Positions 20,626-24,865 of a stretch of 64,000 nucleotides of DNA are shown piece by piece. The position numbers were made by a program, and so were the translations under genes. The notes under the pieces are model-generated. The model ran no database searches. It saw only the letters and a list, made by a program, of their open reading frames with translations, and was not told the origin of the DNA. Position 1 is the first letter of the stretch. Each line of letters begins with the position of its first letter. The stretch is taken from contig NZ_JAUXSP010000012.1 in the NCBI RefSeq assembly GCF_030679875.1, forward strand, positions 62,001-126,000, given 5' to 3'. This DNA is from Phenylobacterium sp. (GTDB lineage Bacteria > Pseudomonadota > Alphaproteobacteria > Caulobacterales > Caulobacteraceae).

Positions 20626-20847
20626 ATGAGCATTGCCGACCAAGATCCCCCCCGCGCCCGTCGTGGCTTCGCCGCTATGAATCCTGAGCGGCGCCGCGAA
20701 ATCGCGCGCAAGGGCGGCGCCAGCGTTCCTGGCGAGAAGCGCAGTTTCGCCAAGGATCGTGATCTGGCCGCGTCCGCCGGCCGTAAGGGCGGTGAAGCTT
20801 CCCGCGGCGGGGGGCGTCGCGAGGCTGACGATACCCCGGAGTCTTAA
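20626..20847 (+). CDS. Small KGG-motif stress protein (YciG/GsiB-like)
   Basis: This very hydrophilic 73-residue protein has two glycine motifs, ARKGGASVP and GRKGGEASRGG, typical of the stress-induced KGG-repeat proteins related to YciG and GsiB. FAAMNPERRREIARKGG is the conserved family opening. Such proteins are intrinsically disordered and made in stationary phase or general stress; their mechanism is not known. AGGAG lies 6-10 bp before the ATG. A possible EcfG promoter lies upstream and a hairpin terminator downstream, so it is probably a single-gene unit. Confidence 0.88.
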   Translation: MSIADQDPPRARRGFAAMNPERRREIARKGGASVPGEKRSFAKDRDLAASAGRKGGEASRGGGRREADDTPES

Positions 20848-20975: not shown

Positions 20976-23195
20976 CTAATTGACCAGCAGGAAAAGCCCG
21001 AACTCGGGCGCCGGGCTGATCCACTGCGCCTCAAGTCGCCAGCCTGCCTGAGCCGCCAGGGTCGACAGAGCCTCCGGCGTAAATTTATGCGAGTTTTCCG
21101 TGTGGATGGTTTCGCCCTCGGCGAAGTCGAACCGGCGTCCCGCCACCGTCACGCTTTGATCGCGCACCGCCACCAGATGCATCTCGATCCGTGACTTCGG
21201 TTCATTCCACACCGCGCGATGGGCAAATCCGCTCAGGTCGAAGTCGGCGCCCAGTTCGCGGTTCATCCGCGTCAGCAGATTGAGGTTGAACGCTGCGGTC
21301 ACCCCTTGCGCATCGTCATAGGCGGCGACGAGGACGTCGGCCGCCTTCACCAAGTCCGCGCCGACCAGAAAGCGTGCGCCGGGGCCCAGCAGATGGCGGG
21401 CGTTGGCCAGAAATTCCACAGCCTCTTCCGGCAGAAGATTTCCGATGGTCGAGCCTGGGAAAAATCCGAAGGCCGGCCGCCTCTGTGCGGCGCCCGGCAG
21501 ATCCAGCGCGATCGTGAAGTCTTCCACCAGCGGCGAGAGCTCAAGTTCTGGATAGTCGGCGCTCAGGCTGGCGACGGCGCTCTCCAGGGCGCTGGGGCTG
21601 ATGTCTATGGGCGTGTAGACCGCGATCTGCGGCGCATGGTCCAGAAGCACGCGGGTCTTCAGGCTCGCGCCACTGCCAAACTCCACCAGGGCGGCGCCGC
21701 CCGGAACATGGGTCGTCAGCTGCGGCGCCACTTCCCGCAGCAGGGCGAGCTCAGTGCGGGTTGGGTAGTATTCCGGCAGACCGCAGATGTCCTCGAACAG
21801 GGCCGAGCCCGGGGCGTCATAAAAGTACTTCGGGGGCACGGATTTCTGACGCCGGGACAAACCCGCCACCACGTCAGCCTCGAACGCGCTGCGCCGGGGC
21901 GCCGGCGCAGCGCCATCCCGGGCGAGCCTGAGGCCTGAGAACATCCAACGTTGATGAGGGTGGAAGAAGTTCCGGTAGGTGGCCCGCACGTGGCCGGGGG
22001 GTGTGACGCAGGCGCCGCCGCGCAGCACCATCTGGCCGCTCATGAACTTGCCGTTGTACTCCCCCACCGCCCCGGGCGCCGAGACGAAGCCGGGATAGGG
22101 CGCGTAGGCGCTTCGGGTCCATTCCCACAGGTCGCCAAACATTTGCCGCGGCGCGCTTGTCCCCCCTTCGGCCGCGGCGGGAGCCGGGGTCCCGCGGGCC
22201 AAAAAGACGCCCCGGATCGGCAGTTGAGCGGCCACATGCTCCCACTCGGCCTCAGTGGGCAGCCGGGCGCCGGCCCAGGCCGCATAGGCCTCGGCCTCGA
22301 AATAACTGAGGTGGCTGACCGGCGTGGCCGGGTCTACCGGGCGCAGGCCATGCAGGCTCATGGCCTGCCAGCCCTCAGGCCCATGCTCCCAATAGAGGGG
22401 GGCTCGCCAACCTTCGCTCTGCACCTGTGACCAGCCGTCTGAGAGCCAAAGCTCAGGCCGATCATAGCCGCCGTCGGCCATGAAACTGAGCCACTCTCCA
22501 TTCGTCACGAGCCGGTCGGCCAGACTGAATGGCGCCAGGAAGACCTTGTGCCGCGGTCCTTCGTTGTCGAAGGCGAACCCGTCGCCGCCGTGGCCGATCT
22601 CCACAAGACCGCCGGCATAGCCCACGAAGGCCAGGTCAGACGGGGCTGCGCCCGGCGCCGGCGAATGGCCTCGACCATAGACTGGCTTGAGCGGCGACTG
22701 GGCGAACAGATGCAGGATGTCCATGAGGATCAGTTCCTGATGCTGCTCCTCATGGGCCACTCCCAGGTCAAACAACGCCCCCAAGCCCTCGGCGCCTGAC
22801 AGGAGAAGCCGGGTCATGGCCTCGTCCACATGCGCCCGATAGGCCATCACGCGCTCAAGCGACGGACGGGTGAGCAACCCCCGCTCCGGGCGGGGCTGAC
22901 GGGGCCCCAGCGTCTCGTAGTAGGAATTGAACAGATAGCCGAAGCGCTCATCAAAGGGCCGGTAACCCTCAAGGTTGGGTCCCAGCAGGAAGGTCTCGAA
23001 GAACCAGGTGGTGTGCGCCAAGTGCCACTTGGCCGGACTCGCATCCGGCATTGACTGGGCCAACTGGTCCTCCGCCGAGAGGTCGCGCACCAGATGCTGG
23101 GTCCGGGCCCGCAGGGCCAGATAGCGCTCGAGCAGCCCCCCCGCCGTCGCTTCAGCCGGACGAAGGACTATGGTTGCGTCGTCTGAAGGCGCCAT
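20976..23195 (-). CDS. Fused ergothioneine enzyme: EgtB sulfoxide synthase + EgtD histidine methyltransferase
   Basis: This single 739-residue protein covers two steps of ergothioneine synthesis. Residues 1-427 are EgtB: a DinB-like helical bundle with the iron ligands in KWHLAH (58-61) and HEEQH (H148, H152), then an FGE-sulfatase-type domain ending in RNFFHPHQRWMFSGLRLA. EgtB joins trimethylhistidine to a thiol donor with oxygen. Residues 436-739 are EgtD, the SAM-dependent histidine trimethylase: PPKYFYDAPGSALFEDI, LVEFGSGASLKT, FFPGSTIGNL and TENSHKF. Fungal Egt1 has the reverse order. OvoA shares the EgtB-like part, but its C-terminal methyltransferase is not EgtD-like, so OvoA is excluded. 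A perfect EcfG promoter lies upstream. Confidence 0.93.
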   Translation of the reverse strand: MAPSDDATIVLRPAEATAGGLLERYLALRARTQHLVRDLSAEDQLAQSMPDASPAKWHLAHTTWFFETFLLGPNLEGYRPFDERFGYLFNSYYETLGPRQPRPERGLLTRPSLERVMAYRAHVDEAMTRLLLSGAEGLGALFDLGVAHEEQHQELILMDILHLFAQSPLKPVYGRGHSPAPGAAPSDLAFVGYAGGLVEIGHGGDGFAFDNEGPRHKVFLAPFSLADRLVTNGEWLSFMADGGYDRPELWLSDGWSQVQSEGWRAPLYWEHGPEGWQAMSLHGLRPVDPATPVSHLSYFEAEAYAAWAGARLPTEAEWEHVAAQLPIRGVFLARGTPAPAAAEGGTSAPRQMFGDLWEWTRSAYAPYPGFVSAPGAVGEYNGKFMSGQMVLRGGACVTPPGHVRATYRNFFHPHQRWMFSGLRLARDGAAPAPRRSAFEADVVAGLSRRQKSVPPKYFYDAPGSALFEDICGLPEYYPTRTELALLREVAPQLTTHVPGGAALVEFGSGASLKTRVLLDHAPQIAVYTPIDISPSALESAVASLSADYPELELSPLVEDFTIALDLPGAAQRRPAFGFFPGSTIGNLLPEEAVEFLANARHLLGPGARFLVGADLVKAADVLVAAYDDAQGVTAAFNLNLLTRMNRELGADFDLSGFAHRAVWNEPKSRIEMHLVAVRDQSVTVAGRRFDFAEGETIHTENSHKFTPEALSTLAAQAGWRLEAQWISPAPEFGLFLLVN

Positions 23196-23278
23196 TCCAC
23201 CCCCTCCCCTGCCGCATGGGTCCGCCCCAGACCGAGGTTGGACCTGCCCGCTCGCGATGGTCGCGCAGGCTGATGATG

Positions 23279-23304
23279 AACGCCAAGCTGGCGGTTCATG
23301 TTCC
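23279..23304 (-). promoter_or_regulatory. EcfG-type general stress promoter for the EgtB-EgtD gene
   Basis: On the minus strand GGAAC (23304-23300), a 17-bp spacer and CGTT (23282-23279) match the EcfG consensus exactly. Transcription would start near 23272, giving a leader of about 77 nt before the ATG at 23195, which has a GGAGGGGG ribosome-binding site. The -35 element is 33 bp from that of the divergent sigma-factor promoter. Confidence 0.75.
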
Positions 23305-23337
23305 TAAAGTCGGGTCACCCCGGGCCGGGCGCAACCC

Positions 23338-23362
23338 GGAACGGAAAAAGCGCCACCACGTT
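23338..23362 (+). promoter_or_regulatory. EcfG-type general stress promoter for the sigma-factor gene
   Basis: GGAAC (23338-23342), a 16-bp spacer and CGTT (23359-23362) match the EcfG consensus exactly. Transcription would start near 23370, 44 nt before the ATG at 23414. The gene it serves is itself an EcfG-like sigma factor, so this implies autoregulation or control by a second EcfG. Confidence 0.78.
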
Positions 23363-23413
23363 GGACGTCTGACCGAGGCCAAGGAGCTGCTCGGTGGTCG
23401 CCACGAGGACGCG

Positions 23414-23938
23414 ATGACCGGTTTGAATAGCTGGCGAGATTCGGTGGTCGCCATGATCCCGGCCCTCCGCGCCTTCGCATGGTCCCTTTGCCACAATGGG
23501 GCTGACGCCGACGATTTGGTGCAGGACACCCTCATCAAGGCCTGGAGCAATCGCGACCGGTTCGAGCCGGGGACCAATCTGCGCGCCTGGCTCTTCACCA
23601 TCCTGCGCAACACCTACTACACCCAGCTCAATCGTCGCCGCCGGGAGGTCCGCGACGAGGATGGGGACTACGCCAAGCTGCTGCGCAGTCCTCCGAGCCA
23701 GGACTGGAGCCTCGCCATGCAGGATTTGCAGTCCGCCCTGGCTCAACTCCCCGACGAGCACAGAGAGGCTCTGATCCTCGTCGGCGCGGCGGGCCTCAGC
23801 TACGAAGAGGCCGCCGAGATCTGCGGCTGCGCCATCGGAACCATCAAGAGTCGGGTCAATCGCGCCCGGATCAAGCTCCAGCGCCTGCTGGACAGCGAGG
23901 GGGAAACTGCGCCAGCGAGCGATGCGGCGACCCTCTGA
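23414..23938 (+). CDS. EcfG-like (ECF15) RNA polymerase sigma factor
   Basis: The 174-residue extracytoplasmic-function sigma factor has a region 2 with DADDLVQDTLIKAWSNRDRF and GTNLRAWLFTILRNTYY, the basic RRRREVRDEDG linker typical of the EcfG/ECF15 group, and a region 4 with YEEAAEICGCAIGTIKSRVNRARIK. EcfG directs the alphaproteobacterial general stress response and is normally held by the anti-sigma NepR, released by phosphorylated PhyR. Neither partner gene is in this window, so this is probably a secondary paralogue, like SigU of Caulobacter, in a sigma cascade. ATG at 23414 has GAGGA 5 bp upstream. A longer reading from 23051 would cross its own promoter. Confidence 0.9.
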   Translation: MTGLNSWRDSVVAMIPALRAFAWSLCHNGADADDLVQDTLIKAWSNRDRFEPGTNLRAWLFTILRNTYYTQLNRRRREVRDEDGDYAKLLRSPPSQDWSLAMQDLQSALAQLPDEHREALILVGAAGLSYEEAAEICGCAIGTIKSRVNRARIKLQRLLDSEGETAPASDAATL

Positions 23939-23955
23939 ACATCTGGCCATCCCGC

Positions 23956-23981
23956 GGAACGACATTCAGTTCAAAGGGGTT
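23956..23981 (+). promoter_or_regulatory. Near-consensus EcfG-type promoter for the small protein-DedA operon
   Basis: GGAAC (23956-23960), a 17-bp spacer and GGTT (23978-23981) differ from GGAAC-N17-CGTT at one base. It lies just after the sigma-factor stop and about 35 bp before the ATG of the next gene. This suggests that the small protein and DedA belong to the same stress regulon. Confidence 0.55.
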
Positions 23982-24014
23982 GAAGCGGACTGCTCACCTG
24001 CGCTGGAGGTAAAC

Positions 24015-24251
24015 ATGGCCGATCATCCCAAGCCCCCCGCTTCGTCGGACGCGCGCCTCCGCGACAACGGCGACGACACAAAGCCAGGCGCCCAAGCCTT
24101 TGGTCTGGGCGCTGAAGAAGCCCACCCCGCACCGAGCGCCCTGGTCAGCGAGCACAAGGCCTATGTGAAGAAGCTTGGCCATCCCACAGCGCCGGACAAC
24201 GATCTGGGGGCTCCCGCCGAACCGTCTCCTGACCCGGTGAAGCGCCCCTAG
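24015..24251 (+). CDS. Small proline-rich hydrophilic protein, unknown
   Basis: I do not recognise a family for this 78-residue protein. It is acidic-to-neutral, rich in proline and alanine (PKPPASSDARLRDNGDD; APAEPSPDPVKRP), with no signal peptide or membrane segment, and probably disordered. GGAGG lies 5 bp before the ATG, a strong ribosome-binding site that supports translation. It follows a near-consensus EcfG promoter and is 8 bp upstream of a DedA gene, so the two are probably co-transcribed. Short disordered proteins of this kind are common in general-stress regulons; that role here is inference. Confidence 0.7.
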   Translation: MADHPKPPASSDARLRDNGDDTKPGAQAFGLGAEEAHPAPSALVSEHKAYVKKLGHPTAPDNDLGAPAEPSPDPVKRP

Positions 24252-24259
24252 GGCGCGCC

Positions 24260-24865
24260 GTGGACGGCCCCGCCGGACGGCTCGCGGCCCTCTTGCAGGA
24301 CCATCCTGAGCAGGCTGGTCTGGTCATCGGCCTGCTGGTGTTCGCCGAGAGCTTGGCCTTTGTGGGGTTTTTCGTGCCCTCCACCCCTTTGCTCCTGATG
24401 ATCGGGGCGATGTTGGGCGCAGGTCTCCTGGAGCCCGGCCCCCTTCTGGCCTACGCCGTCGTGGGCGCGGTGCTGGGCGACGCCATCTCCTATGAACTTG
24501 GCCGCTGGATGGGCCCGTCCACCCTCCGTCATCGGCTGCTCAAGCCCCGCCGTCGCGCCTTGGCCCGCGCCCGGCTGTTTATCCGCAAGGCCGGGGTCGC
24601 GACCATGATTCTGGGGCGGTTCACCGGGCCGATCCGCTCGCTGGTCCCGCTTGCGGCCGGCATGCTCAGAATGCGACGCCTGCCCTTCCAGGCGGCCAAT
24701 GTGATCGGCGCGCTGGTCTGGATCCCCGTGATGCTGGCCCCTGGATATCTCGCCGCCCGAGGCGTGAGCCTGCTTCCCCCCGGACTGATCGAGCCACTCC
24801 TTGCGGGCGCCGTCGTCATCGTCCTGGCTGTGCTGATCTGGAGGCGGCGGCTGAGCAGGGTCTGA
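24260..24865 (+). CDS. DedA family membrane protein
   Basis: The 201-residue inner-membrane protein has four to five hydrophobic segments and two DedA hallmarks: ESLAFVGFFVPSTPLLL near residue 30 (re-entrant glutamate loop) and GRFTGPIRSLVPLAAGMLRM near residue 120 (conserved arginines). DedA proteins are thought to move undecaprenyl phosphate or phospholipids across the inner membrane and support envelope integrity and proton-motive force. This one is shorter at the N-terminus than E. coli YqjA. GTG start, 8 bp after the small protein gene, under the same likely stress promoter. Confidence 0.87.
   Translation: MDGPAGRLAALLQDHPEQAGLVIGLLVFAESLAFVGFFVPSTPLLLMIGAMLGAGLLEPGPLLAYAVVGAVLGDAISYELGRWMGPSTLRHRLLKPRRRALARARLFIRKAGVATMILGRFTGPIRSLVPLAAGMLRMRRLPFQAANVIGALVWIPVMLAPGYLAARGVSLLPPGLIEPLLAGAVVIVLAVLIWRRRLSRV

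Follow-up and report, generated by a model that had tools for sequence, protein, structure and literature searches.

The 218-base gap between the divergent egtBD and ECF sigma factor genes of this Phenylobacterium sp. genome probably (a probability of about 0.7 in our estimate) holds a back-to-back pair of general stress response (GSR) promoters, both of which would be read by the core sigma factor EcfG1, with the sigma factor encoded beside the gap, an EcfG paralog, reinforcing its own expression and that of egtBD. Judged from sequence, both motifs in the gap are very likely EcfG-type promoters, because they are conserved across the genus and match, in form, those in front of core phyR and nepR-ecfG. 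The window referred to below is the whole stretch of DNA that was analysed, 64,000 nucleotides.

The motif directed towards egtBD occupies 23279..23304 on the minus strand (GGAAC at 23304-23300, a 17-base spacer and CGTT at 23282-23279), and the one directed towards the sigma gene occupies 23338..23362 on the plus strand (GGAAC at 23338-23342, a 16-base spacer and CGTT at 23359-23362); GGAAC-N17-CGTT and GGAAC-N16-CGTT were both located where an earlier note on this DNA had placed them. The spacing of the two GGAAC boxes is 33 bases. From the end of the -10 element to the ATG there are 83 bases for egtBD (ATG at 23195) and 51 bases for the sigma gene (ATG at 23414), so that the 77 and 44 bp given previously apply if one counts from a transcription start placed 6-7 bases past the -10, and not from the end of the -10 itself. 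A consensus scan of positions 23150-23460, which does not cover all promoter types, detected no sigma-70-like promoter.

The two motifs were the only perfect matches in the window, and both were correctly oriented within the gap. Dinucleotide shuffles of the window gave an expectation of 0.52 matches, and 7 of 100 shuffles had at least two matches anywhere in it; the weight therefore rests on the presence of both in one 218-bp gap in the correct orientation. The 3.5-Mb genome contained 44 motif matches and 43 matches to the reversed pattern, by which a genome-wide enrichment of the motif was rejected. As the motif is at chance level genome-wide, a lone match is weak evidence and the argument rests on conservation. 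The view that the pair is unlikely to arise by chance was thus upheld for two sites in one gap that are conserved in the genus, and does not extend to single matches. Overlapping EcfG sites with a perfect motif on each strand were also observed elsewhere in the genome (contig C22, 64571-64597), and near palindromic GGAACG...CGTTCC sites, again perfect on both strands, were present in three other loci (L074, L090 and L272); such sites hint at bidirectional EcfG promoters.

The gene on the minus side of the gap, egtBD (20976..23195, 739 aa), encodes an EgtB-EgtD fusion. Residues 22-425 matched TIGR03440 (EgtB) with 567.9 bits (cut-off 360) and residues 438-736 matched TIGR03438 (EgtD) with 386.9 bits (cut-off 290.9), so the identity previously proposed for this protein was confirmed against both curated models. 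The cut-offs of SenA (345.9 against 420) and OvoA (84.6 against 400) were not reached. With the EgtB and EgtD cut-offs passed and those of SenA and OvoA failed, ergothioneine is the expected product, and by its sequence the protein is firmly predicted to be the sulfoxide synthase and histidine Na-methyltransferase of ergothioneine synthesis. The closest EgtBD among the named records listed came from a Caulobacteraceae MAG (L162, 82% identity). A small KGG-repeat gene (PF10685, stress-induced) lies convergent with egtBD at 20626-20847 on the plus strand and was present in 67 of 81 sequences (the window slice and 80 loci). Its membership of the same promoter system was rejected, since none of the 67 loci had an EcfG motif (N16 or N17, at most one mismatch) in the 220 bases upstream of it. 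On the other side, the sigma gene is directly followed on the plus strand by a short ORF (23922-24251) and then by a VTT-domain gene (24260-24865), which had matches in 8 and 6 other loci of the 80, respectively, in close relatives only.

Conservation of the arrangement was investigated in 90 genomes of the genus, our own included, the genus being taken as Phenylobacterium or its GTDB equivalent. EgtBD was present in 70 of these genomes, and in 63 of the 70 it was flanked, in divergent orientation, by a close sigma gene ortholog (64 loci, one genome having two); the ortholog was absent from the other seven. Only one of the 20 genomes without egtBD carried the sigma gene, where the perfect sigma-ward motif was kept. 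The co-occurrence had a Fisher p of 8e-13, with kinship and genome completeness ignored. The assignment to this genus rests on two counterparts in named records: Phenylobacterium sp. Root1290 (L151) contains the complete egtBD/sigma gap of G071, and P. aquaticum (L203) has a stretch identical to one of G031.

The sigma-ward motif was perfect in every one of the 64 loci of the genus (spacer N16 in 61, N17 in 3), and a separate, non-overlapping perfect egt-ward motif was found in 50 of the 64. This count is 50 and not 51 because sigma-ward sites read backwards as egt-ward sites (in L074, and for one of the two sites of L090) were excluded. The egt-ward sites of these 50 loci lay a median of 79 bases (range 39-137) from the start of egtBD, and some of the 14 loci without one had, at a comparable position, a site with one mismatch (for example L101, L102 and L103). 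The egt-ward promoter is less tightly kept than the sigma-ward one. Conservation in close relatives, suggested as a check in the earlier note, was borne out, and a lack of it was not seen. The loci are related and hence not independent observations; when the gaps were clustered at <75% identity, 51 clusters resulted, with the sigma-ward motif perfect in 51 and the egt-ward motif in 37. Controls with permuted motif letters yielded a mean of 0.45 loci for the sigma-ward and 0.27 for the egt-ward position, and the largest control values (54 and 29 loci) presumably reflect permutations, CGGAA for example, that reproduce the site in a shifted register. Across the 61 N16 sigma-ward sites the mid-spacer columns were near random and the columns beside the boxes were partly conserved. 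The distance between the two GGAAC boxes in the 50 gaps with two sites was 33-35 in 34 gaps, 21-22 in 7 and 43 in 2, roughly in helical-turn steps, with few independent changes underlying them. Among the seven genomes with egtBD and without the sigma gene, four had a perfect egt-ward motif and three had none. The retention of the motif where the sigma gene is missing suggests that it can presumably be read by the core EcfG or by a different paralog.

The sigma factor itself (P0001, 23414..23938, plus strand, 174 aa) was identified as an EcfG-type ECF sigma factor paralog from its domains, its match to NF009199 and phylogenetic trees. Sigma70_r2, Sigma70_r4_2 and PhyR_sigma2 were all above their Pfam cut-offs, and NF009199, a model named only 'RNA polymerase sigma factor', was matched with 227.8 bits (cut-off 219). 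P0001 therefore has two domains, sigma regions 2 and 4, and is related to the PhyR sigma-like domain. It had 47% identity to core EcfG1 and grouped with the core EcfG rows, the outermost ECF rows being left outside, in trees of 69 and 35 rows that were rooted by midpoint only and held few outgroup rows. All egt-linked sigma rows included formed one Caulobacteraceae clade, with support of 94/96 in the tree of 69 proteins and 100/98 in the smaller tree. This clade stood apart from the core EcfG of Caulobacter and Phenylobacterium, from a third group of Phenylobacterium paralogs and from a group that we call SigU-like, the free paralogs nearest to the Caulobacter/Phenylobacterium core EcfG. The name SigU-like is our own, given from the position of the group in the trees and from the literature, the trees having been made without the SigT and SigU sequences of C. 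vibrioides. An identity with SigU was rejected because the window clade is distinct from the SigU-like group, and an identity with the core EcfG because the core gene is on another contig and the clade is separate. RHE_RS26680 on plasmid p42f, our candidate for the published R. etli EcfG2, formed a long branch and did not join the window clade, and on this candidate R. etli EcfG2 was set aside as the closest characterised relative. The earlier description of the factor as EcfG-like accordingly holds for its type, by domains and tree; it is not the core EcfG and belongs to a separate paralog clade.

The core locus of the genome is on contig C9, where PhyR (minus strand), NepR (77 aa), EcfG1 (197 aa) and a HisKA_2 histidine kinase are encoded. 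NepR had one match in the genome, and PhyR_sigma2 matched three regions, namely PhyR and the two EcfG-type sigma factors; the genome thus has one canonical PhyR-NepR-EcfG locus, one PhyR and two EcfG-type factors. P0001 is not encoded beside nepR and phyR, and since the only NepR and PhyR found adjoin another EcfG on C9, it is a paralog and not the primary EcfG. Within the gap between phyR and nepR-ecfG1 a perfect motif was directed towards nepR in 9 and towards phyR in 10 of 10 core loci, our own included and some being near-identical pairs. These motifs have the same back-to-back layout as those of the window and serve as a positive control. The core GSR genes are surrounded by eight perfect EcfG motifs within roughly 6 kb (contig C9, 25242-31128).

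To look beyond the genus, 299 genomes of the family were searched, and the sigma factor was identified (E<=1e-55) in 88, of which 37 belong to other genera. In total 15 of the 22 genera had it; it is widespread in the family, and far from universal. From the genomes outside the genus, 20 of 38 loci were sampled, representing 19 of 37 genomes. One of these (L276) was rejected as a sigma-paralog locus, as it holds a core EcfG beside phyR and nepR. In 14 of the 19 remaining loci the sigma gene was divergent to egtBD (with egtB and egtD as two ORFs in L263). Of these 14 egt-linked loci, 13 had a perfect sigma-ward motif (15 among the full set of 19) and 5 a perfect egt-ward motif, with overlapping readings not counted. 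Two loci of other genera had the window sigma clade near a PhyR-like gene (L269, 704-1447, with the sigma gene at about 3480; L260, 7180-7500) with approximately 46-51% identity to core PhyR, perhaps a second partner switch.

Egt-ward motifs were further analyzed in the best 80 egtBD-like loci listed from named genomes, their class assigned from record titles, leaving out six close relatives (L150, L151, L153, L159, L162 and L203) and one locus of unknown class (L168). A perfect motif within 300 bases towards egtBD was found in 11 of 33 alphaproteobacterial loci against 0 of 40 others (Fisher p=5e-5). Among the loci listed, it was present in 3 of 3 from Caulobacter and 4 of 4 from Bradyrhizobium, and in 0 of 3 from Methylobacterium and 0 of 2 from Asticcacaulis. 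A sigma gene of the window type was detected in none of the 33 alphaproteobacterial loci when flanks of about 3 kb were searched. A motif at egtB genes throughout the order was rejected, because none of six egtB/egtBD loci from other families had a perfect one (L144 and L148 had one-mismatch sites); the ergothioneine-motif link is therefore not order-wide. Taken as a whole, the earlier observation was confirmed, and the interpretation given with it is largely, though not fully, supported.

The preferred mechanism would begin under stress with PhyR taking NepR off EcfG1, which would free the core sigma factor. RNA polymerase with EcfG1 would then transcribe both divergent genes, egtBD and that of the paralogous sigma factor. 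This paralog would most likely read the same two promoters and amplify its own expression and that of egtBD, so that ergothioneine synthesis would be embedded in a loop of feed-forward and positive feedback. The start sites, the pairing of sigma factors with promoters, the feedback, the sigma dependence and the stress signal are what we infer from these data. The -35 element is read by the region 4 helix of ECF sigma factors, and this helix is nearly identical in the window clade (GTIKSRVNRAR) and in the core factors (GTVKSRVSRAR), which makes a promoter recognition common to both plausible; for the recognition of GGAAC-N16/17-CGTT by P0001 the conserved helix is suggestive only. Shared recognition by paralog and core cannot be assumed, as the second EcfG of R. 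etli, according to the text available, prefers its own promoter and has mostly separate targets (PMC3892343).

Alternatively, the paralog alone could read both promoters as an autoregulated module devoted to egtBD and largely independent of PhyR and EcfG1. We consider this unlikely, even though the tight linkage and the co-occurrence of the two genes (63 of 70 genomes against 1 of 20), the distinct clade and the stricter retention of the sigma-ward site would all fit it. Of the 7 genus genomes that have egtBD and lack the sigma gene, 4 keep the egtBD motif, as do Caulobacter and Bradyrhizobium, where no sigma gene is linked to it, and its sequence equals that of the motif at the core GSR genes. 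Core control is favoured by a motif that stays where the paralog is missing, and a dedicated role of the paralog by the co-occurrence; the two are not mutually exclusive. A more far-reaching idea, which we also consider unlikely, is that the paralog is a general-stress sigma factor devoted to one pathway, an EcfG offshoot of Caulobacteraceae that became fixed beside egtBD as a self-reinforcing ergothioneine stress switch, fed by the core GSR and yet able to maintain ergothioneine synthesis without it. It is quite improbable that the sigma gene alone is EcfG-controlled, with egtBD mainly expressed from another promoter and its EcfG-like site minor: the missing egt-ward site in 14 of 64 genus loci and the 22 of 33 alphaproteobacterial loci without the motif (outside close relatives, among the best 80 listed) agree with it, but the site is perfect in the other 50 and the scan for sigma-70-like promoters in the gap, limited as it was in promoter types, was negative. 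Chance matches without promoter function would suit the genome-scale counts but, given 64 and 50 conserved loci against control means below one, are already refuted as far as sequence allows.

To our knowledge, little is established about how bacteria control the amount of ergothioneine that they make. The preferred reading, a GSR promoter pair reinforced by the paralog, suggests that production of this antioxidant is tied to the general stress response, and the conserved promoter pair with its linked sigma factor makes a simple, direct genetic test possible. It also suggests one reason for the several EcfG paralogs of alphaproteobacteria, in that at least one clade is seemingly bound to one output. 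The conserved divergent module of egtBD and an ecfG paralog seems to be new; no report of it was recognised in the literature, mostly open-access, on ergothioneine, EgtB/EgtD and EcfG/PhyR. EcfG cascades and a link between ergothioneine and the GSR are already known, the latter, in the literature searched, from Sphingopyxis granuli (PMC7083833, available in part). A Methylobacterium study names both PhyR and ergothioneine and, in the text available, draws no link between them (PMC12573535).

Compared with known systems, the egtBD/sigma module shares with the core phyR and nepR-ecfG locus the motif, the back-to-back layout and one outward EcfG-type sigma gene, but has egtBD in place of phyR and no nepR beside the sigma gene. 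As in the SigT-SigU cascade of Caulobacter, in which sigU has a SigT motif upstream and is SigT-dependent (PMC3073932, text seen in part), a second EcfG-type sigma gene stands behind a GSR-type promoter; the window factor, however, falls in a clade other than the core and SigU-like rows and adjoins egtBD. The GSR regulon of S. granuli, delimited by the genes whose expression is lowered in a double mutant of ecfG1 and ecfG2, likewise contains egtB and egtD, but these are separate genes (SGRAN_4050 and SGRAN_4049) and the available part of the paper mentions no linked sigma gene (PMC7083833). R. etli EcfG2 is also a second, non-canonical EcfG, described in the part available as autoregulated and specifically needed against oxidative stress, to the survival of which it is tied there (PMC3892343), whereas its candidate lies on a long branch outside the window clade. 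Rather than a system of a new kind, the module is a variant, well conserved, in which a single antioxidant pathway is coupled to an EcfG paralog of its own.
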